Shown here piece by piece: positions 13,101 through 37,231 of a stretch of DNA of 37,231 nt (position 1 is its first letter; each line of letters starts with the position of its first letter). The DNA lies in IMG/VR virus record IMGVR_UViG_3300011116_000293, positions 1-37,231 of that record; one strand, given 5' to 3'. Source of the stretch: a virus. The notes below the pieces were generated by a model. It was not told the origin of the DNA. It made no database searches and saw only the letters and a list, made by a program, of their open reading frames with translations. The translations under genes were made by a program, and so were the position numbers.

Positions 13101-13246
13101 TGGCATACACACCAAAAGCCCAACGTGGTTTGTACTTCAACATTAACCAGCGCAGAGCAGCGGGTTTGCCGCCCAAGCGTCCAGGCATGACGGGTTACCC
13201 CACCAAAGAAGCGTTTATCAGGTCAAAGAGAACCGCTAAACGTTGA
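13100..13246 (+). CDS. Small basic hypothetical protein, last plus-strand gene
   Basis: 48 aa, starting MAYTPKAQRGLYFNINQRRA and ending FIRSKRTAKR. Starts at the ATG overlapping the previous stop rather than at an upstream in-frame ATG inside the neighbour. Basic, with no recognised domain. Its 3' end overlaps the 3' end of the convergent methyltransferase gene by 11 bases. Confidence 0.65.
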   Translation: MAYTPKAQRGLYFNINQRRAAGLPPKRPGMTGYPTKEAFIRSKRTAKR

Positions 13247-13706
13247 CATGAACTTTGACAAGCTCACACAATAGGTGTGGGCCGTGGTAGCGCATTTCTT
13301 TAATAACAAAAGCTCCCTTAAAACCATACTGTTTTGCCCAAATCTTCCTGTCATCAAAATACTCATAGAAAGTATCTGGCGTGATGATGTTGACATGTGT
13401 CGGGTCTTGGAAAGCCGCACCATGTGGGAACGCTGGTGTCGAGGATAGGAACTTGCCACCCACCTTCATCACCCTGTAAATCTCTGACATGAGTTCTACA
13501 AACGGGTATCTGCGATTTGGGACATACAACAGTCTGGGTATGTGTTCCAGAAAGTCATAGGCAGTCACATAGTCAAAATACTCGTTGGCATAGGGGATAG
13601 GCTCAATAGCGAGGTCAACGTCCTCAATATCAAGTCCTATCACTTCACTGGCATGGTAGGGGTTGCGGATGGTTTCTCCGCACCCAAGGTCAAGAGAGAT
13701 AGTCAT
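13236..13706 (-). CDS. Class I SAM-dependent methyltransferase
   Basis: 156 aa. Motif I LDLGCG is at residues 6-11, followed by an acidic loop VIGLDIED, post-I YDFLEHIPRL and RVMKVGGKF (the R-x-L-K-P-G-G signature of Methyltransf_11-type enzymes). Shorter than a standalone methyltransferase, as usual for phage versions. The acceptor is unknown. The gene is last in the early operon, abutting (TAA-ATG) a PAPS-reductase-like gene, so the pair may act on the same nucleic acid, sugar or small molecule. Confidence 0.8.
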   Translation of the reverse strand: MTISLDLGCGETIRNPYHASEVIGLDIEDVDLAIEPIPYANEYFDYVTAYDFLEHIPRLLYVPNRRYPFVELMSEIYRVMKVGGKFLSSTPAFPHGAAFQDPTHVNIITPDTFYEYFDDRKIWAKQYGFKGAFVIKEMRYHGPHLLCELVKVHVNV

Positions 13707-14528
13707 TTAATCACCACAAAAACAATCTATAGATTCTTCATTTGGGTCAAACATATCTTTTTGTTCTACCGAAAATTGAATCATTGACGCATAAGATGGT
13801 CGGTCTTTACGAAACACCGCACCGCTTGGCTTGGATGCCAATGCCAATGCCAATGCCTCCATTTTTGCCCACCAAATACCACGCTCTGGCTTTTCTGCAA
13901 TCAGAGATAACACTTGTGCACCGCCTTTTAAAAAACATAAATCGCAATTACCGTGATATGTCACGCCATTTATGTTTGGCAACTCAAGGTCAAAAGATTG
14001 ATTTCTCCAAAATTCACTCACAATTTCTTTTGTAACACCAGCAGCAACCAATGGAATTCTTGATTTGTCAGCAATTTTGGCGGCTCGACGTTGTTCATCA
14101 GCCCTCATACCCACCCAATCCATAGATTCATTATGTTGCCAACCCAATGACTTAAGGTATTTATGAATTGTTCGTATTTTTAGTTCTGCCGTACAAAATC
14201 TTGTCACAGGGTTTGGCAAGTATTGACGTTTACGAATAAGTGCTTCAAAAGGTTCGCCATTACGACTTGCAGTCTCAAATGTCACACGTTCAAAAGCAGG
14301 GTCTGCATCTCGGTATTCAAGCCAATGAATTTCAACATTCCATTCTTTTGCACATCTGTCAATAAAACGCAGTGTTGCCTCATCTTCCTTTCCTGTGTTG
14401 GCAAAACAAACAATAGCCTCATCGGGAAGACCATTGTTTGTTTTTAGCACTTGATACAACATATAAGCAGAAGTTCTGCCTCCGCTGAAGCTAATGCACG
14501 TTGGCTCAAGTATTTTGTATGGATTCAT
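13707..14528 (-). CDS. PAPS-reductase/DndC-like ATP-pyrophosphatase family protein
   Basis: 273 aa. The PP-loop SFSGGRTSAYML (residues 13-24) and the segment RFCTAELKIRTI (about 110-121) are hallmarks of the phosphoadenosine phosphosulfate reductase family. Cysteines in GNCDLCFLKGG (193-203) and a C-terminal CFCGD suggest a metal or Fe-S site, as in the DndC-like branch. Biochemical role in phages is unresolved; sulfur metabolism or modification chemistry are candidates. It overlaps the upstream glycosyltransferase by four bases. A 6-bp tandem repeat encodes its ALALALA stretch. Confidence 0.8.
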   Translation of the reverse strand: MNPYKILEPTCISFSGGRTSAYMLYQVLKTNNGLPDEAIVCFANTGKEDEATLRFIDRCAKEWNVEIHWLEYRDADPAFERVTFETASRNGEPFEALIRKRQYLPNPVTRFCTAELKIRTIHKYLKSLGWQHNESMDWVGMRADEQRRAAKIADKSRIPLVAAGVTKEIVSEFWRNQSFDLELPNINGVTYHGNCDLCFLKGGAQVLSLIAEKPERGIWWAKMEALALALASKPSGAVFRKDRPSYASMIQFSVEQKDMFDPNEESIDCFCGD

Positions 14529-15271
14529 GGTGCTGGCAACAAGCCCCCCTCAAACAGATAGCTACCAAAATGCCCCAAAACCACCCACGGAGCAGCGTAA
14601 ATCTTGTACCCATGCCGTCTGGCTTCTTGGCAGAAATAGTAGTCCTCTGACAGCAATCTGCCCACACCCTCTTCAATCGCACAGGCAAAGAACTCCACAA
14701 TCTTGTCTTGCTTGATTTCACCAGACAGGAAAGTAACGTCATTGATATAACTAGGCATCTTGGTAGCAAGGTCTTCTAAACAACTACGCTTTATAAGCAT
14801 GAAGCCTGTACCGCCATTCCAGATTTCCACAGGCTCATGTGCGGGTACGGTGACTGTCCCCTGATAGTCCACAAGGTTAACAACCAGGCTACCTGTACGG
14901 GTTTTCAGTTGGTCAACAGGCACACCGTCTTTAACGGCTTGTTCCACGCCATGCCAGTTGATTTCCTTCTTAGGGTAAATACCACAGATAATGTCTTTGT
15001 CAGCGTCAATCATAGGCACAATATCAGCGGGGTTCCACCGAATATCTGCGTCAATGAACATCAGGTGCGTGGCTTCCTTCTTGTTGAGAAAGCCATGTGC
15101 AAGAGCGTTTCTGCCACGCTGAATGAGGCTTTCGTTGAACATGCAGCTAAAGCTCATGTCTATATCGTTTGCCCTCATAACTGTCGTCATGTTGACCAAT
15201 GATTGACAATAGTAGCCTGTTGTCATGCCACCATACATAGGCGTTGCCACAAAGATGTGTGCTTTACTCAT
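14525..15271 (-). CDS. GT-A-like glycosyltransferase
   Basis: 248 aa. Starts with a strand and loop typical of family 2-like folds (HIFVATPMYGGMTTGY), has a DxD-type metal and sugar-nucleotide motif in FIDADIRW (72-79), then CGIYPKK, IWNGGTGFMLIKRSCLE and SEDYYFCQEARRHG, the acceptor-side acidic motif. Phage enzymes of this class glycosylate DNA, phage proteins or host surface glycans; the target cannot be told from sequence. Overlaps genes on both sides in an ATGA arrangement. Confidence 0.8.
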   Translation of the reverse strand: MSKAHIFVATPMYGGMTTGYYCQSLVNMTTVMRANDIDMSFSCMFNESLIQRGRNALAHGFLNKKEATHLMFIDADIRWNPADIVPMIDADKDIICGIYPKKEINWHGVEQAVKDGVPVDQLKTRTGSLVVNLVDYQGTVTVPAHEPVEIWNGGTGFMLIKRSCLEDLATKMPSYINDVTFLSGEIKQDKIVEFFACAIEEGVGRLLSEDYYFCQEARRHGYKIYAAPWVVLGHFGSYLFEGGLLPAP

Positions 15272-16262: not shown

Positions 16263-16430
16263 TCAGTTGAGTGTGTACCTTGCGTACTTCTTGCCGTTTT
16301 GATTAACCATGTGCGTAAAGATTCTGTGTCCGTCCTTACGAAGACTTTCGATATGTGCTGCAAGCCTGAAACAACCGAACTCATTTAATGCCTCCATTGG
16401 TGTCAGGCTTTTCCCGCTTTGCAACCACAT
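16263..16430 (-). CDS. Small helix-turn-helix protein (HTH_39-like)
   Basis: 55 aa: SGKSLTPMEALNEFG, CFRLAAHIESLRKDGH, then a short wing and KYARYTLN. This LTPxEAL-x2-FG-x2-RLAAxIxxLRxxGH pattern matches the small winged-helix HTH_39 domain (PF14090) common in phages, often encoded beside recombination genes. Starts in TGATG overlapping the RecT stop codon. Probably a DNA-binding regulator or recombination accessory. Confidence 0.8.
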   Translation of the reverse strand: MWLQSGKSLTPMEALNEFGCFRLAAHIESLRKDGHRIFTHMVNQNGKKYARYTLN

Positions 16431-17290
16431 CAAAATATTGGTTCGCTGAGTCCCGAATCGGGAAGTGGTTGGGACTTGACGGGCTTTGGGTGTACAGTTC
16501 CCCCTGATTCAACGATGGCCCCTTTGAGTTTGACTTTATCCATTGTTGAGAAGTTTTCTGTAACAACCTTGTTGCACTCGGCAAGAGAGGAGAGCTTGTC
16601 TGCCTTTTCCTCCACAGAGTATTTTTGGCTTGCTGTGATGCGTCCGACCATTTGTGCATACCCGTCTATCCATTCCTCAACGCTTGCGTAGCGTTTGTAG
16701 GGTTCGTCAGAGTTCGGGACAAATAACGCAAACGCTCCGTCCTCAACCAGTTCGACAATCTCAACTTCTGGTAGGTCTTGTACCCGTTCAACATTACCCA
16801 TGAACTTTTCTTTGGGAGGTTCAAAATCCTGGACTTCCTCAGGCGTATAGACTCCGACAACAGCACCTGGATAGACGGAACGTATTCCCTCGCTAATGAC
16901 TCTCGCACGGAGCATCGCTCTTGGGTAGTTCTTCCAGTTGTCCTTGTTTGCAATTCCAATCTTCTTGGCTTGAGCAAGTGTCCACGACAACTCCAGAGTT
17001 CCCCCTTGAGGATGCGAAAAGATGCCTGTGACCTGCTCATCTGTATATTCCTTCCAATTAACTGAACCACCAGCTTGCTGAAATCTAGCGAGCATGGCAT
17101 CTGCTTTGAGTGCGGGTCTGCCTTGGATGACATGATAGTCACGCATGGCAACCGCTGGGTGCATGTTCTCGCCTTGGCAGAGCAACATGATGGCAAGTGC
17201 TTCTTGTGTACTCTTGAACCCGAACATCTTGCTACCAGCGGCAACCTCCGCCATCTGCTGCATGTCGTTGAAGGGGACTATGTTACTCAT
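16430..17290 (-). CDS. recT: RecT-family ssDNA annealing recombinase
   Basis: 286 aa. N-terminal and central segments (AVAMRDYHVIQGRPALKADAML; WTLAQAKKIGIANKDNWKNYP; AMLRARVISEGIRSVYPGAV) match the RecT/phage recombinase core, where the paired Arg and Lys residues contact DNA. The C-terminal third is divergent and acidic. Pairs with the YqaJ-type exonuclease upstream to form a two-component annealing recombination system analogous to RecE/RecT or Red. The ribosome site is inside a GGA-AGT-TCC palindrome. Confidence 0.85.
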   Translation of the reverse strand: MSNIVPFNDMQQMAEVAAGSKMFGFKSTQEALAIMLLCQGENMHPAVAMRDYHVIQGRPALKADAMLARFQQAGGSVNWKEYTDEQVTGIFSHPQGGTLELSWTLAQAKKIGIANKDNWKNYPRAMLRARVISEGIRSVYPGAVVGVYTPEEVQDFEPPKEKFMGNVERVQDLPEVEIVELVEDGAFALFVPNSDEPYKRYASVEEWIDGYAQMVGRITASQKYSVEEKADKLSSLAECNKVVTENFSTMDKVKLKGAIVESGGTVHPKPVKSQPLPDSGLSEPIF

Positions 17291-17495
17291 TGGGAACTTC
17301 CTTTCTTTGTTTCATCATTAAATCTGCCATTTGGTATGCCTTGGCTGCAAACTCATCCATCGTTGCGGTCAGGCTAGGTTCTGAAATCATGGCTTGCATG
17401 GCAAGACCTGCAAACCAATCTCTCAAATCCATACCTTCACTCTCTGTTGTCTGACCACTTGTAGGGTGTTTGTGCATGTAGGGATAGGCTTTCAT
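17283..17495 (-). CDS. Conserved small phage protein (DLRDWFAGLAMQ type)
   Basis: 70 aa. Contains GMDLRDWFAGLAMQAMI and AYQMADLMMKQRKE, a pattern widespread in phage early regions, where it is annotated only as hypothetical. Helical and soluble. It overlaps the RecT start by eight bases, so translation is probably coupled. Confidence 0.7.
   Translation of the reverse strand: MKAYPYMHKHPTSGQTTESEGMDLRDWFAGLAMQAMISEPSLTATMDEFAAKAYQMADLMMKQRKEVPNE
17293..17301 (-). promoter_or_regulatory. AGT-centred palindrome over the RecT ribosome site
   Basis: Minus strand GGAAGTTCC (in RNA GGA-AGU-UCC) two bases before the RecT ATG, with the AAGGA ribosome site as left arm. A shorter version of the early-gene mini-hairpins. 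Confidence 0.45.
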
Positions 17496-17685: not shown

Positions 17686-18579
17686 TCACTTCAGTAAAAA
17701 TCTACGGGAACCAGGCATCTCACGCATGAACTGCTTGTAGATGTCGGGCATACTTTCTTGAAACAGCTTGGCATCAAACTTGACGCTTGGCTTGGATGAC
17801 TTCCATGTTGCAAGTACTTTGCCATCTATGGTGGTCAGTGTGTCCTTGTCTTGCATGTAGCCACGCACAAGGGTGTCGTACTGCTCTTCTTGAGCCTCTA
17901 GAGCTTTGATGTTGGCCTTGATTTGTGCAAGGGCCATGCAAGCCTGTTCGACACTGGCTGAAGCTGTTTTAATGCTTTCTGTGCTTGTAGGGTAAAGCAG
18001 CTTGACTTGCTCAAGGTCTTCAGGTGGGAGGGTTGTTCCCGCTTGGGCATGACCCCAGATGACTGCCATCTGTTTGATAAGGTCTTCCTTCTGCTCATCA
18101 GTGATGGTAAATGGGATAAGGACGAACTCTTGACCACCGAAAAGAATGGCGAGATAGACCATATCGACACCGAATACAGCTGCTTCATGTACCAGTTGCG
18201 CCACATCCGCAGGGGGTGCGAGGCCAGACACATCGAACTTATTACGCACACTTGCGTTGTAGTTCTTAGCTTCCACCAAAAATGTCTTGCTGCCTTGTTT
18301 ACCAGCAAAATCAAAATGAGACTTAAACCAAGGGTGTTTGGCATGTGTGAGACTCTCCTCTATTTTTGTTAACTCTACCCCTAGTTTCTGTTGGGCAAGT
18401 CTGCCTATTACTGGTTCCATCACATGACCCATTTGCACGGCTTCAACATGGGAAATGTCTTCAATTTCAAGTTTGCCTTGCTTTGTCAGGATGACCTCGT
18501 TGGCCTTGCCATTTGCTACCTTTCTGCTGTCACCAGACCAGATAGCGGAGTTTCTTGTTTGTGGGCTGAAGTCAGACAT
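17686..18579 (-). CDS. YqaJ-family viral exonuclease
   Basis: 297 aa. The lambda-exonuclease/YqaJ fold is shown by MGHVMEPVIGRLAQQKLG (Glu55), the Asp90 in HFDFAG, the E-x-K at 103-105 in FLVEAKNYN, and QLVHEAAVFG with AILFGGQEF. It is expected to resect dsDNA ends to give ssDNA for the RecT protein encoded two genes later. A GGAGG ribosome site is present, and the start overlaps the upstream gene by eight bases. Confidence 0.87.
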   Translation of the reverse strand: MSDFSPQTRNSAIWSGDSRKVANGKANEVILTKQGKLEIEDISHVEAVQMGHVMEPVIGRLAQQKLGVELTKIEESLTHAKHPWFKSHFDFAGKQGSKTFLVEAKNYNASVRNKFDVSGLAPPADVAQLVHEAAVFGVDMVYLAILFGGQEFVLIPFTITDEQKEDLIKQMAVIWGHAQAGTTLPPEDLEQVKLLYPTSTESIKTASASVEQACMALAQIKANIKALEAQEEQYDTLVRGYMQDKDTLTTIDGKVLATWKSSKPSVKFDAKLFQESMPDIYKQFMREMPGSRRFLLK

Positions 18580-18908: not shown

Positions 18909-19304
18909 TCATGTGTTGCGCTCCTTCAATAAGGCGATGGCTTGAGCAACAGCACTTTGTTGACCTAAATTTGTGTTGTAGAACAAATCTGTTAACTCAT
19001 CATTCGTCAACCCATGCCATGTACGCTGTGGTGGGTGTGGGTAAAGTGGCGAACTTTTAAACATATCATGGGGGGTTTCTCCATAATTTAGCCAACCCTT
19101 ATTGTTTATCCATACCCACGCCACAGGCTCTTGCTCATGTCGCTGTTTTTGCATTTCATCGACATATTCCTTTGATGTGTCGTTGGTAGCGACATTTGCC
19201 AAGGCTTTTTCAAATACAGCAATAGCTTCTGCTGTGCCACAAGGTTCGCCACCGTGACACCACTTCAGTGCATCAAGCACAAGTTTCAATTCATCTTTTG
19301 TCAT
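18909..19304 (-). CDS. Conserved phage early protein (PLYPHPPQRTW type)
   Basis: 131 aa. Starts MTKDELKLVLDALKWCHG, then EQEPVAWVWINNKG, then SSPLYPHPPQRTWHGLTNDE and a helical tail. This order (helical start, EPVAW, PLYxxPPQR, GLTxxE) is a recurrent phage early protein layout with no established function. GGAGG lies upstream; the start overlaps the zinc-ribbon micro-gene by four bases. Confidence 0.75.
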   Translation of the reverse strand: MTKDELKLVLDALKWCHGGEPCGTAEAIAVFEKALANVATNDTSKEYVDEMQKQRHEQEPVAWVWINNKGWLNYGETPHDMFKSSPLYPHPPQRTWHGLTNDELTDLFYNTNLGQQSAVAQAIALLKERNT

Positions 19305-19390: not shown

Positions 19391-19494
19391 GGGTTATCCC
19401 TCCACGCTAGGAAGCTGACAACTAGGGCTATGGCAATCAGGACTATCAGTCCCCCTGCTGAGAGCAGCACTATCCAGGTCAAAACATCTTGCAT
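19387..19494 (-). CDS. Single-TM microprotein (35 aa), nested in another frame
   Basis: The 35 residues are nearly all one membrane segment (WIVLLSAGGLIVLIAIALVV), ending with SFLAWRDNP. A GGAGA ribosome site at proper spacing and ATGA coupling to the zinc-ribbon gene support it. It lies almost wholly inside the 3' part of the 67-aa frame at 19394-19597 in a different phase. Either the genes are nested or the longer frame is partly spurious. Confidence 0.55.
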   Translation of the reverse strand: MQDVLTWIVLLSAGGLIVLIAIALVVSFLAWRDNP

Positions 19495-19597
19495 GTATGT
19501 CTCCAGTAATTGTTAGGGCTTTTATGATGGCAGAGGGGGGGTGCAATATGCCACCTCTGACTTGGTTTAAGAGTTGATTTGCTTCTTGTCTGGTCAT
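19394..19597 (-). CDS. Small hypothetical protein (MTRQEANQLL type) overlapping TM microgene
   Basis: 67 aa with an AAGGAG ribosome site. The first 36 residues (MTRQEANQLLNQVRGGILHP, then IIKALTITGD) resemble a common short phage protein, MTxxEAxxLLxxVRxG ... ALxxTGD. The remaining 30 residues overlap the TM microprotein out of frame and look less protein-like (Ser, Cys, Pro rich). The start is certain by motif and RBS; the C-terminal half may be a read-out after an ancestral shortening or a true overlap. Confidence 0.55.
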   Translation of the reverse strand: MTRQEANQLLNQVRGGILHPPSAIIKALTITGDIHARCFDLDSAALSRGTDSPDCHSPSCQLPSVEG

Positions 19598-21352: not shown

Positions 21353-21370
21353 GATTATCGAATGATAATC
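21353..21370. promoter_or_regulatory. Operator-like 7-4-7 palindrome, copy 1
   Basis: GATTATC-GAAT-GATAATC, perfect 7-base arms, 29 bases before the 21324 start. A second copy with the same arms lies before the clamp-like gene. An 8-base-arm inverted repeat (CCCTATGC...GCATAGGG, 21370-21396) abuts it. Confidence 0.6.
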
Positions 21371-21403
21371 CCTATGCCCACAATATGAGCATAGGGGTAC
21401 CAC

Positions 21404-22039
21404 TTAGGCCGTTGCTGTTTCGTTTGCTGCAACCTTAGGCCGTGTACACCATGTAGGCACGTTGACGCTAGCATGCTCACGCATAGGCATAATCACGCCT
21501 ACGAACAACGGGTCACTGTCAATATTGACAAGGCCGCTATCGTTGCCCCGTTGCTTAATTTGTACGCTGATACCGTTTGCCTTATGACCCCGTAAGTCAT
21601 TCGCACAATCATAAAAGGCTTGAATATATTCGGGGTTATATGTGCTTTGTTCTAGCCCTTTATCGCTTGTAAGCGTAGGAACTACCCTATCACAATCGGG
21701 AAAATTACCCTCTAGGGCTTGAAAAATCATGGTTTCACTCATTGCAGTGATAACGCTTACCTTTACCCCGTCAACGGTAAAGCACAATGATTCGTTGCCC
21801 TTTTTACCCGTTGCGCCTAAGCTTTTCACCGATTCAAGCGGTAATATGACGCTACACGGGTTTGCTATCGGTGTTTCGTCAATAAGCAAACGGCCTAGAA
21901 TGTGCCCGTTTGTTGCTTCGATATATGTGCCCCTATTATTTTGCACAATGTGAAGCCCTTGTAAGTAATAACGTATGTCCTTCGTTGCTGCAAACCGTGA
22001 CATACCTTTGAGTTGTTTGCGGAGAATTGAGAATTGCAT
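21404..22039 (-). CDS. DnaN-like mini sliding clamp (domain II plus partial domain III)
   Basis: 211 aa against about 366 in bacteria. DIRYYLQGLHI (21-31), EATNGHILGR (41-50), LEGNFPDCDRVVP (109-121) and VGVIMPMR (180-187) line up in order with E. coli beta-clamp motifs recalled as DVRYYLNGM, VATDGHRLA, VDGRFPDYRRVLP and AAYVVMPMR. These come from domain II and the end of domain III. Domain I and about half of domain III have no counterpart, and 24 extra residues follow the usual C-terminus. The retained parts form the peptide-binding cleft that docks polymerases and repair proteins. It may be a trimerising compact clamp or a decoy for host clamp-binding proteins; no phage polymerase is encoded. 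Confidence 0.8.
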   Translation of the reverse strand: MQFSILRKQLKGMSRFAATKDIRYYLQGLHIVQNNRGTYIEATNGHILGRLLIDETPIANPCSVILPLESVKSLGATGKKGNESLCFTVDGVKVSVITAMSETMIFQALEGNFPDCDRVVPTLTSDKGLEQSTYNPEYIQAFYDCANDLRGHKANGISVQIKQRGNDSGLVNIDSDPLFVGVIMPMREHASVNVPTWCTRPKVAANETATA

Positions 22040-22067: not shown

Positions 22068-22085
22068 GATTATCGGATGATAATC
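22068..22085. promoter_or_regulatory. Operator-like 7-4-7 palindrome, copy 2
   Basis: GATTATC-GGAT-GATAATC, identical arms to copy 1 at 21353-21370 and 29 bases before the clamp-like gene start, the same distance as copy 1 from its gene. Confidence 0.6.
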
Positions 22086-22119: not shown

Positions 22120-22311
22120 TCACAATGGTTCAAAGCCTAAACCGAAACCCGCATACCCTAGAGTTTCACAACCCGCAAACCATGTTTCCAAGTCATAATC
22201 GCTAGCCACATGGTAAGCGTTATCCTCAAATACAACCCAAAAATCATCCGCTTTTTCATTGGATAAACGAATTGCAGCCCTTGCAGCGTCATTAAAATTA
22301 GCATATGCCAT
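22120..22311 (-). CDS. Small hypothetical early protein (63 aa)
   Basis: Start chosen at 22311 (MAYANFNDAARAAIRLSNEK), because GGTTAGTAACC with the ribosome site ends directly at this ATG; the longer in-frame start at 22377 lacks one. The chain continues WVVFEDNAYHVASDYDLETW and ends in an aromatic/Gly-rich GYAGFGLGFEPL. No family recognised. Confidence 0.65.
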   Translation of the reverse strand: MAYANFNDAARAAIRLSNEKADDFWVVFEDNAYHVASDYDLETWFAGCETLGYAGFGLGFEPL

Positions 22312-22322
22312 GGTTACTAACC
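22312..22322 (-). promoter_or_regulatory. AGT-centred palindrome over the ribosome site of the 22311 gene
   Basis: Minus strand GGTTAGTAACC directly before ATG; GGG of the ribosome site is its left arm. In RNA: GGUU-AGU-AACC. Confidence 0.6.
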
Positions 22323-22398
22323 CCTTAAAGTTGATTGATTGATTGATACGTTGAAAGCGTATCGCATGACCTAGCACGCTAGGCCATACGCTAGGCTT

Positions 22399-22770
22399 TT
22401 AATCCATGCGTGACTCTACATATGCTTTGATACCGTACTCATTCAATACGCTAGCAAAAGCATAGGCATAGGCCTCTTTTTTAGTCAACGATTGATTGAA
22501 ATCACGCACTGACATACTTACGCCGCCGTTGTAGGCTTTGCGACCTAAACCGTTAGCAACTAAAAACTTAGCGAATTTACTATTTGCGGGTTTGACGGTA
22601 ACGCTAGCAAACCCGCAAACACCGTCACTAACGAAATATTCCCGTACAACCTTAGAATCGTCATTAAACGGGTTTTCACGTTGTTGCACTACCATAGGTG
22701 CTACCGTAGTCATTTCAACGGCTACATTGCCCGCATAGTGCGCTTGTTGATAGATTGATTGTTCATTCAT
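22399..22770 (-). CDS. First early protein of the minus arm (123 aa)
   Basis: Mixed alpha/beta protein with VVREYFVSDGVCGFASVTVK, KPANSKFAKFLVANGLGRKA and a C-terminal helical segment ending VESRMD. The central VCGFASVxxKPANSKFAKFLxANGLxRKAY block looks strongly conserved-like, but I know no function for it. As the promoter-proximal gene next to the control region it is probably expressed first, and might be a host-takeover factor. The ribosome site lies in GGATAGTATCC. Confidence 0.7.
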   Translation of the reverse strand: MNEQSIYQQAHYAGNVAVEMTTVAPMVVQQRENPFNDDSKVVREYFVSDGVCGFASVTVKPANSKFAKFLVANGLGRKAYNGGVSMSVRDFNQSLTKKEAYAYAFASVLNEYGIKAYVESRMD

Positions 22771-36372: not shown

Positions 36373-37231
36373 ATGCCACGTTTATCCAAAATTGGTGCTG
36401 CTGCACTCGCTGCCTTTGGGTGGACAGGGTTGCAATCTGTTACTGCCACCTACCTTGTGGTTGCTGGTGGTGGTGCTGGTGGCAATGGCGGTGGCGGTGC
36501 TGGAGGATATAGAACAGGAACAGCGTCATTAGACCCAACACTTTCATACACAATAACCGTTGGCGCTGGCGGTGCAAATGCAACTTACCCCACCGTTGGT
36601 TCTTCTGGGGGCGCATCTTCTATATCTAGCATAGGAATATCTTCTGCTGGCGGTGGTGCGGCGGCGCAAGCTGGAAATGCTGGCTTGTCTGGTGGTTCGG
36701 GCGGTGGCGGTGCTGGTTCGTCTTTTGGAAGTGGTGCGGCTGGCTCAGGAAATACTCCAAGCACTTCTCCATCTCAAGGAAATAACGGTGGTACAGCGGG
36801 TACTGGAACTACTGGAAGTTCTGGCGGCGGCGGCGCTAGTGCGGTAGGTGGTAACGGTTCTGGAGGAACAGGCGGCGCAGGTGGTGCAGGAACTGCCTCA
36901 AGTATTTCTGGGTCATCCGTCACTTATAGCGGGGGTGGTGGTGCTGGTGGAGACACTGCTGGTGCTGGAGGTTCTGGCGGCGGCGGCGCTGGAGCATCTG
37001 GAAATAATAATGGTACATCGGGAACATCCAACACTGGCGGTGGCGGCGGTGGAACAAGAAACAACACCATTATTGCAACTGCTGGCAACGGCGGCTCAGG
37101 CATTGTCATCATTTCATACACAAGCGCAACACAATTATTTGGTGGTGGAACTGTTACCCAATCAGGCGGTAACTTCATTCACACATTCACATCTTCTGGC
37201 GCACTTAGCCCTTTGTCATCTGTAACAGCAA
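36373..37231 (+). CDS. Glycine-rich tail fibre/adhesin, N-terminal part (continues at position 1)
   Basis: Open frame from the ATG at 36373 (after a weak AAGGAC) to the window edge, and in frame with the 1-1715 segment after circular joining. Total 819 aa in three repeat units. N-terminus MPRLSKIGAAALAAFGWTGL is short and basic-hydrophobic, not a clear signal peptide. Unit 1 then opens with TYLVVAGGGAGGNGGGGAGG and ends GSGIVIISYTSATQLFGGG. Ordinary linear ORF calling misses this half because it has no stop. Confidence 0.85.
   Translation, partial: MPRLSKIGAAALAAFGWTGLQSVTATYLVVAGGGAGGNGGGGAGGYRTGTASLDPTLSYTITVGAGGANATYPTVGSSGGASSISSIGISSAGGGAAAQAGNAGLSGGSGGGGAGSSFGSGAAGSGNTPSTSPSQGNNGGTAGTGTTGSSGGGGASAVGGNGSGGTGGAGGAGTASSISGSSVTYSGGGGAGGDTAGAGGSGGGGAGASGNNNGTSGTSNTGGGGGGTRNNTIIATAGNGGSGIVIISYTSATQLFGGGTVTQSGGNFIHTFTSSGALSPLSSVTA
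37118..37231. repeat. Terminal direct repeat, copy 2 (circular closure)
   Basis: Exact copy of positions 1-114. With one copy removed the circular unit is 37,117 bp. Confidence 0.95.

Follow-up and report, generated by a model that had tools for sequence, protein, structure and literature searches.

A DnaN-derived phage protein apparently reduced to one and a half domains, with most listed residues of the partner-binding pocket kept

Introduction

Sliding clamps are known as rings, and the known clamps are made of twelve modules. The chains of PCNA and T4 gp45 have two whole domains each and form trimeric clamps. For DnaN, a 2024 review (PMC11139829) divides the partner-binding pocket into subsite I, consisting of R152, L155, T172, G174, H175, R176, L177, P242, R246, V247, V360 and M362, and subsite II, consisting of H175, N320, Y323, V344, M362, P363, M364 and R365, and names I78, F106, I272 and L273 as residues that stabilise the dimer interface. 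According to another paper (PMC4041429), the I272A/L273A variant of the E. coli clamp is a monomer at low micromolar concentration.

Here, a short clamp-like gene of a viral genome (IMG/VR record IMGVR_UViG_3300011116_000293) is compared with these systems; the window, that is, the whole stretch of DNA analysed, is 37,231 nucleotides long. A preliminary description had read the product, which we call the mini-clamp, as a compact DnaN relative that keeps the cleft for partner proteins and lacks domain I.

A Conserved DnaN Relative in an Apparently Complete Genome

The window carries a perfect 114-bp direct repeat at its ends (1-114 and 37118-37231) and so looks complete, suggesting a closed genome of 37,117 bp. 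The gene is as follows.

21404..22039, minus strand: mini-clamp gene, ATG start, 211 aa, stop codon included; DnaN-derived, with modules II-A, II-B and III-B and a tail

A longer reading frame was rejected, as the open frame starts just 10 codons upstream of the ATG. The mini-clamp protein matches NCBIfam TIGR00663 over residues 4-124 (E 1.3e-10; 40.8 bits, short of the cut-off of 137.65) and Pfam PF02767 (E 4.2e-5; 24.2 bits, short of the cut-off of 27). PDB chains of DnaN are matched from E 5e-6 with the single protein and from E 5e-21 with the family profile, and hhalign of the mini-clamp family against DnaN gives 99.3% in local and 99.6% in global mode. These matches indicate that the product is a real, conserved relative of DnaN, with homology well beyond chance. 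The translated frame, both family models, the PDB chains and hhalign thus concur with the preliminary description in a compact DnaN relative of 211 residues, a reading that survives the profile searches; the motifs DIRYYLQG, EATNGH, NFPDCDRVVP and VIMPMR are also all present where that description had aligned them with DnaN.

PHROG 3007 is the family that the protein matches best (E 5e-28), residues 2-189 aligning to positions 2-187 of the 190 in the profile. Relatives confirmed in IMG/VR number 183 in one scan and 421 in a scan with alignment, and 78 of 80 viral relatives fetched are 208-216 aa long, one of the other two having 228 aa and one being cut by a contig end. A search of 50,697 phage records gave 99 matches, all below 60% identity and some of them full-length clamps, 71 of which cover at least 80% of the query. 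Twelve of 28 relatives were compared with it in pairs; dS could be estimated in 9 of the 12 pairs, and in these 9 the dN/dS ratio is 0.09-0.24, with synonymous changes in excess of non-synonymous ones. The values are rough because dS exceeds 1 in 7 of the 9.

Half-Domain Modules Kept and Lost

E. coli DnaN, as part of an alignment of 24 DnaN proteins, was cut into six half-domain modules, and each module was compared by hhalign with three parts of the mini-clamp family. Three of the six modules are kept (II-A, II-B and III-B), and the other three (I-A, I-B and III-A) are lost, matching none of the three family parts.

21860..22039, minus strand: residues 1-60, module II-A (E. coli DnaN about 126-185); hhalign 98.3%, the other five modules at most 1.1%
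21677..21859, minus strand: residues 61-121, module II-B (E. coli about 188-250); hhalign (residues 58-121) 96.6%, next II-A with 7.5%
21476..21676, minus strand: residues 122-188, linker and module III-B (E. coli about 310-366); hhalign (residues 122-190, local mode) 93.0%, the other five below 1%

The cleft positions of the mini-clamp are R23, L26, T43, G45, H46, I47 and L48 in module II-A, P114, R118 and V119 in module II-B, and N135, Y138 and MPMR (184-187) in the III-B part, before which the expected III-A is missing. In the global mode of hhalign, residues 122-190 give 38% with III-B and 0.3% with III-A. On PDB entry 7rzm, the family profile has one match at 151-262 (i-Evalue 1.4e-16) and a second at 324-373 (i-Evalue 1.5, weak support for III-B). 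The Pfam model of domain III matches in one of 25 mini-clamp records, that of Escherichia phage C1, at positions 65-121 of 121, which is the second half of the domain (E 4.2e-4, under the cut-off).

A remnant of domain I was considered, since PF00712 weakly matches 4 of 29 members (best E 0.052); because hhalign gave no match to domain I, these hits are taken as cross-matching between clamp domains. By these profile comparisons, the mini-clamp is a DnaN cut down to domain II and the second half of domain III, that is, to one and a half domains. Domain I is missing, with neither I-A nor I-B matched, as the preliminary description had proposed, but module III-A (E. coli about 250-310) is gone as well, so the reduction goes further than had been thought.

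The Partner-Binding Cleft and the Dimer Interface

The deletions separate the pocket from the ring interface. All 18 pocket positions listed in the review (PMC11139829) lie in the kept modules, and all four core residues of the dimer interface named there lie in the lost ones; being without domain I and III-A, the mini-clamp is without the whole of this core. In the alignment, the window protein has the E. coli residue at 16 of the 18 pocket positions, R176 and V344 being the two that differ. With these residues present and the fold predicted, the earlier claim that the partner-binding cleft is kept is borne out.

Pocket positions are invariant in 9 of 18 cases against 25 of 169 elsewhere among 29 aligned members (Fisher p 0.0012), and the mean frequency of the top residue in 13 diverse members is 0.79 in the pocket against 0.40 elsewhere (p 9e-8), p-values that overstate the evidence because the sequences are related. 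The nine residues invariant in the 29 members are R152, L155, T172, G174, H175, P242, N320, M362 and P363. Variation within the pocket falls on R176 and V344, which are not conserved, on Y323, which is Y or L, and on M364; in BcepC6B, the M and P of MPMR are lost. Since DnaN conserves the same pocket, its conservation reflects a continued constraint and not a new one.

The inner helices of the mini-clamp are more basic than those of 24 DnaN proteins, with +3.3 against +2.1 in II-A and +2.4 against +0.5 in II-B, for helix limits chosen by hand. In nine distant members the same helices are weaker, with +0.8 in II-A and +1.4 in II-B.

Predicted Structure and C-Terminal Tail

A first AlphaFold model of the mini-clamp (29 sequences, pLDDT 77) fits more poorly, with 3.9 Å over 170 residues to 2pol, than a second one built with 38 sequences (pLDDT 89.2, pTM 0.83), which overlays residues 126-366 of E. 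coli clamp entries over 170-179 residues at 2.5-2.9 Å (Z 14.1-16.8). The predicted elements of the second model are one full domain, a helix and three strands, and the III-B half-domain sits at the place of III-B in DnaN, so that the cleft should form. The processivity fold and the cleft residues, which the preliminary description had expected, are thus both present in the model and the alignment. The 50 structural matches listed are all bacterial sliding clamps or complexes containing one; PCNA and gp45 are not among them, which is no evidence of absence. A library of viral structures contains close matches of the same size, such as A0A6J5S145 (202 aa, TM 0.78/0.81).

The proposal that the protein could form a two-domain trimeric ring like PCNA fares less well. 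Three of the four half-modules that such a ring needs are present, and the dimer-interface core of DnaN lies in the deleted modules; with its one and a half domains, the mini-clamp lends this proposal no support.

The extension of 24 residues past the normal C-terminus, counted from R187, which corresponds to E. coli R365, was confirmed.

21407..21475, minus strand: residues 189-211, C-terminal tail with V/I-P-x-W-C; P195, W197 and C198 invariant in 29 sequences

In the second model, a short helix spans residues 196-199 of the tail, and the mean pLDDT, 82 over residues 181-200, drops beyond them. A further relative (L104) has N in place of the tail C, and some distant members have an aromatic residue at a similar distance, others stopping at the MPMR-like motif. 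The conservation of V/I-P-x-W-C in closer relatives indicates that the extension is not random, and the tail may cover the face formerly under III-A, or may fold into the pocket.

Genomic Neighbourhood

By reading frames, the mini-clamp gene is the third gene of a leftward block that starts near 22,770. The surrounding features are as follows.

22399-22770, minus strand: small frame preceding the mini-clamp in the leftward block, with a phrog_22149 match
22120-22377, minus strand: small frame preceding the mini-clamp in the leftward block, with no Pfam match
22068..22085, no strand: palindrome GATTATC-N4-GATAATC, just upstream of the mini-clamp start
21370-21396, minus strand: terminator-like stem adjoining the second copy of the palindrome
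21353..21370, no strand: second copy of the palindrome, between the mini-clamp stop and the start of the next gene
17686..18579, minus strand: RecE/YqaJ-like exonuclease in the same leftward block (PF09588 E 3.4e-5, phrog_434 E 1e-43)
16430..17290, minus strand: RecT-like annealing protein in the same leftward block (PF03837 E 9.7e-6, phrog_561 E 2e-24)

The palindrome has two exact copies in the window, which bracket the mini-clamp gene, and 0.05 copies are expected at up to 2 mismatches; the pair is possibly an operator or early promoter element. Relatives of the two small frames upstream (22399-22770 and 22120-22377) occur in 7 and 8 of 104 loci, respectively. Among other small proteins of the window, those at 19394-19597, 17283-17495 and 18909-19304 (all minus strand) have homologues in 21, 22 and 13 of the 104 loci, some of which are otherwise unlike the window. 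The frame at 14525-15271 (minus strand) gives a weak glycosyltransferase match and is followed by a phosphoadenosine-phosphosulfate-reductase-like frame (13707-14528) and a methyltransferase-like frame (13236-13706).

The company of the gene varies between phages. Of 29 loci that are 12 kb or longer, eight (L001, L002, L003, L006, L007, L010, L012 and L087) share much of the neighbourhood of the window, and the remaining 21 have the mini-clamp and at most 3 of the 23 other window genes compared, indicating that the mini-clamp occurs in phages of unlike gene order. In L001 (IMGVR_UViG_3300011339_000743), nearly all of the compared genes are 97-100% identical to those of the window, one small frame being 73% identical, suggesting a phage sampled twice or split over two records. 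A YqaJ match at E up to 0.001 is found in 13 of 16 IMG/VR records (12 over the cut-off) and in one of nine named mini-clamp phages, giving 14 of 25 in total, counts that have no background rate; other exonucleases are annotated in BcepC6B, Bcep781 and Rb1. In some named phages the mini-clamp lies beside genes of DNA metabolism, namely a polymerase and a nuclease or a primase-polymerase, and the polymerase A gene adjoins it in 2 of the 4 named phages that have both. Its neighbours in Xanthomonas phage Rb1 are RdgC and SSB; in Bcep781 and EP23 it stands among structural genes, and in Escherichia phage C1 it has a ParB-like/methyltransferase group on one side and structural genes on the other. 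In 31 of 103 loci, the strand of the mini-clamp also carries, some 0.8 kb upstream of it, a small frame resembling the N-terminal part of ArdC (anti-restriction), for example at L023:5240-5554.

Search for the Rest of the Clamp, a Polymerase and Phage Partners

The domain I model PF00712 matches none of the 25 mini-clamp records, but does match all 4 phage records that carry a full-length DnaN. When the closed window was searched in six frames (920 open frames, each 25 aa or longer), the profiles of DnaN domain I and module III-A gave best E values of 0.65 and 0.43, respectively. A supply of the missing modules by another phage gene finds no support in these two results. In agreement with the preliminary description, which had seen no phage polymerase, no family A, B or C polymerase was matched in any of 16 IMG/VR records of at least 30 kb, namely the window and 15 related records, the latter being possibly fragments. 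A DnaB helicase is matched in one of 25 records, which is not the window. Four of the nine named short-form phages (Bcep781, BcepC6B, Acinetobacter phage 4316 and EP23) have a polymerase A match.

The 57 reading frames of the window contain 3 matches to the canonical clamp-binding motif, where 5.2 are expected; in BcepC6B and Acinetobacter phage 4316, the polymerases, nucleases and helicases that adjoin the mini-clamp have no such match. The window exonuclease carries QVKLL, which its relatives in L010-L012 and L104 are without, and two proteins of Xanthomonas phage Rb1 show a motif, namely the exonuclease with QLDLL (0.10 expected) and RdgC with QARLML (0.31 expected). With the exonuclease motif unconserved, no phage partner with a canonical motif stands out.

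Annotation and Distribution of the Family

The names of the 40 matches listed of the 99 phage-record matches are divided between RusA-like (16), DNA polymerase III beta or sliding clamp (13), DNA polymerase (3) and hypothetical (7), and one has no annotation. The first of these names is also that of phrog_3007, labelled 'RusA-like Holliday junction resolvase', and is found on NC_005887.1, NC_004333.2, NC_054651.1 and other records. In two phage papers (PMC9038960, PMC9825357), genes annotated as clamps, which may be of the long or the short form, are assigned the textbook clamp role. No account of a phage clamp that is ringless or has 1.5 domains was recognised in the open-access PMC literature. 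The family is thus already known and annotated in many phages, and the module loss is apparently undescribed in that literature.

A search of a genome collection seeded with DIRYYL[QN]G gave at least 80 loci, of which 25 were examined; 24 are long DnaN-like frames and one is mini-clamp-like (Achromobacter, L111), the seed being one that favours such long DnaN proteins. A short-form match was also found on four Salmonella plasmid records, one of which was inspected; these are NZ_CP045061.1 (L200:4959-5525) and three similar records, large conjugative plasmids on which the short clamp-like protein (165 codons matched) is annotated as hypothetical.

Proposed Role and Alternative Explanations

The window thus encodes a partner pocket without the known ring interface, in a genome without a detectable remainder of the clamp or a family A, B or C polymerase. 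The part that grips is kept and the parts that close the ring are lost, suggesting that host replication and repair proteins are probably handled otherwise than by encircling DNA. The mini-clamp would not be able to close round DNA as DnaN does, and its pocket is predicted to dock host clamp-binding proteins, such as polymerases, the clamp-loader subunit delta, MutL, Hda and others. Host rather than phage partners are suggested because no phage protein with a canonical motif stands out. The basic helices may touch DNA non-topologically, and, as the least certain step, the host proteins might be held at the recombination or replication intermediates that the RecE-like exonuclease and the RecT-like protein make. 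This leads to the tentative hypothesis, to which we give slightly less than even confidence, that the mini-clamp acts as a ringless adaptor holding host clamp-binding proteins at phage recombination or replication intermediates. Such an adaptor is favoured by the replication and recombination genes that lie near the gene in several phages, by the absence of a polymerase and by the basic helices of the window branch. The less basic helices of distant members, the loss of the M and P of MPMR in BcepC6B, the want of a phage partner with a conserved canonical motif, the YqaJ match in just one of nine named mini-clamp phages and the positions in Bcep781, EP23 and phage C1, which are not beside recombination genes, argue against it.

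The lost interface and the kept cleft would also suit a soluble decoy, which the preliminary description had proposed beside a redirection of the host polymerase, and in which a monomeric pocket titrates delta, Pol III alpha, Hda, MutL, translesion polymerases or a defence protein, so that host replication and repair are slowed or reprogrammed. The one good argument for it is that, according to the review, the E. coli clamp has an about 50 times tighter hold on delta as a monomer than as a dimer (PMC11139829). The position as third reading frame of the leftward block, the unlike neighbourhoods in which the same gene is found and its frequent proximity to the ArdC-like gene in other loci also point to a decoy. 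However, several named members lie within replication gene blocks and the basic helices are kept in the window branch, and a general decoy would be somewhat self-defeating, since titration of Pol III or delta would harm a phage in whose genome no polymerase was found as well. We regard titration as possible and somewhat less likely than the adaptor, and a redirection of the host polymerase as likewise possible. A ring of a new kind, in which the orphan III-B of one subunit completes that of another, would reach the twelve modules of known clamps with four subunits of three modules each, and basic inner helices in module II of the window branch would suit it; the known dimer-interface core residues lie in the deleted modules, and we know of no precedent for III-B/III-B pairing, so that this assembly appears improbable. 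Slightly less credit is given to a mixed complex, in which the mini-clamp would join or cap the clamp or the clamp loader of the host, for instance with its free II-B edge presented to a subunit of the host clamp. Module II is whole, which suits this reading, but no evidence of mixed rings was found, and in DnaN domain II meets domain I inside one chain and not across the subunit interface.

Two further explanations can be practically set aside. The phrog_3007 label, on the best family match, and the 16 names among the 40 matches listed would make the protein a RusA-like Holliday junction resolvase, but the RusA family is matched by none of the 29 members in Pfam at E up to 1, against 29 of 29 for the central domain of DnaN, and all of the 50 structural matches listed contain a clamp. 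In Bcep781, moreover, the mini-clamp gene is noted as 'DNA Pol III b subunit fragment' and a separate gene as Rus. By these comparisons, the RusA-like label on this clamp-derived family finds no support. That the gene is a decayed, non-functional fragment of a clamp gene is suggested by its large deletions relative to DnaN, and is hardly compatible with the narrow length range of its relatives, the low dN/dS ratios and a cleft more conserved than the rest of the protein.

Returning to docking, the mini-clamp is most likely a ringless module predicted to dock host clamp-binding proteins, which it may either recruit to phage DNA or titrate. More broadly, it may belong to a recurrent class in phages, and also on plasmids, in which a clamp has been made into a ringless docking module with its pocket under selection, so that phages that encode no polymerase would take over clamp-binding proteins of the host with no need of a clamp loader; we consider the case for and against this generalisation evenly balanced. 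A clamp derivative that has the pocket but no ring would uncouple the two functions and tell which one is important for a polymerase-less phage. The doubtful label also affects a good share of phage records, as the listed names indicate. Provided that binding by the pocket is as predicted, its natural soluble form would be a possible reagent or guide for clamp-directed antibacterials.

Comparison with Known Clamps and Clamp-Directed Proteins

The mini-clamp resembles DnaN (TIGR00663; PF00712, PF02767 and PF02768) in domain II, III-B, most of the listed cleft residues and the predicted fold, and differs from it in being without domain I, III-A and the dimer-interface core, in its tail and in scoring below the cut-offs of TIGR00663 and PF02767. 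Full-length phage DnaN proteins, such as those of Rhizobium phage RR1-A, Aurantimonas phage AmM-1 and Microcystis phage Mae-JY04, are phage-borne too, but have 370-379 aa with domain I and the whole of domain III. Four phage loci in our set (L194, L196, L197 and L198) have a full-length DnaN of 369-379 aa; the full-length DnaN chain of Paracoccus phage Pyei1 gives no PF02768 match, and its domain III may be unusual.

PCNA and T4 gp45 share the processivity fold and a short chain with the mini-clamp, which consists of three DnaN half-modules instead. Gp168 of phage Twort blocks the DNA channel of the host clamp, according to the review (PMC11139829); the mini-clamp may resemble it as a phage product that targets the clamp network of the host. 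Unlike Gp168, the mini-clamp is itself derived from a clamp. There is also a likeness to the short proteins of PHROG 3007, such as Bcep781 gp15, BcepC6B gp31 and EP23 p08, nine distant members of which align by eye over the same three modules. The window branch has the V/I-P-x-W-C tail, whereas the proteins of EP23, phage C1, Vibrio 1.246 and Acinetobacter 4316 stop at the MPMR-like motif. Judged from its sequence, the mini-clamp descends from DnaN and belongs to PHROG 3007, and yet it departs from the features that define DnaN, namely three domains and a dimer interface.
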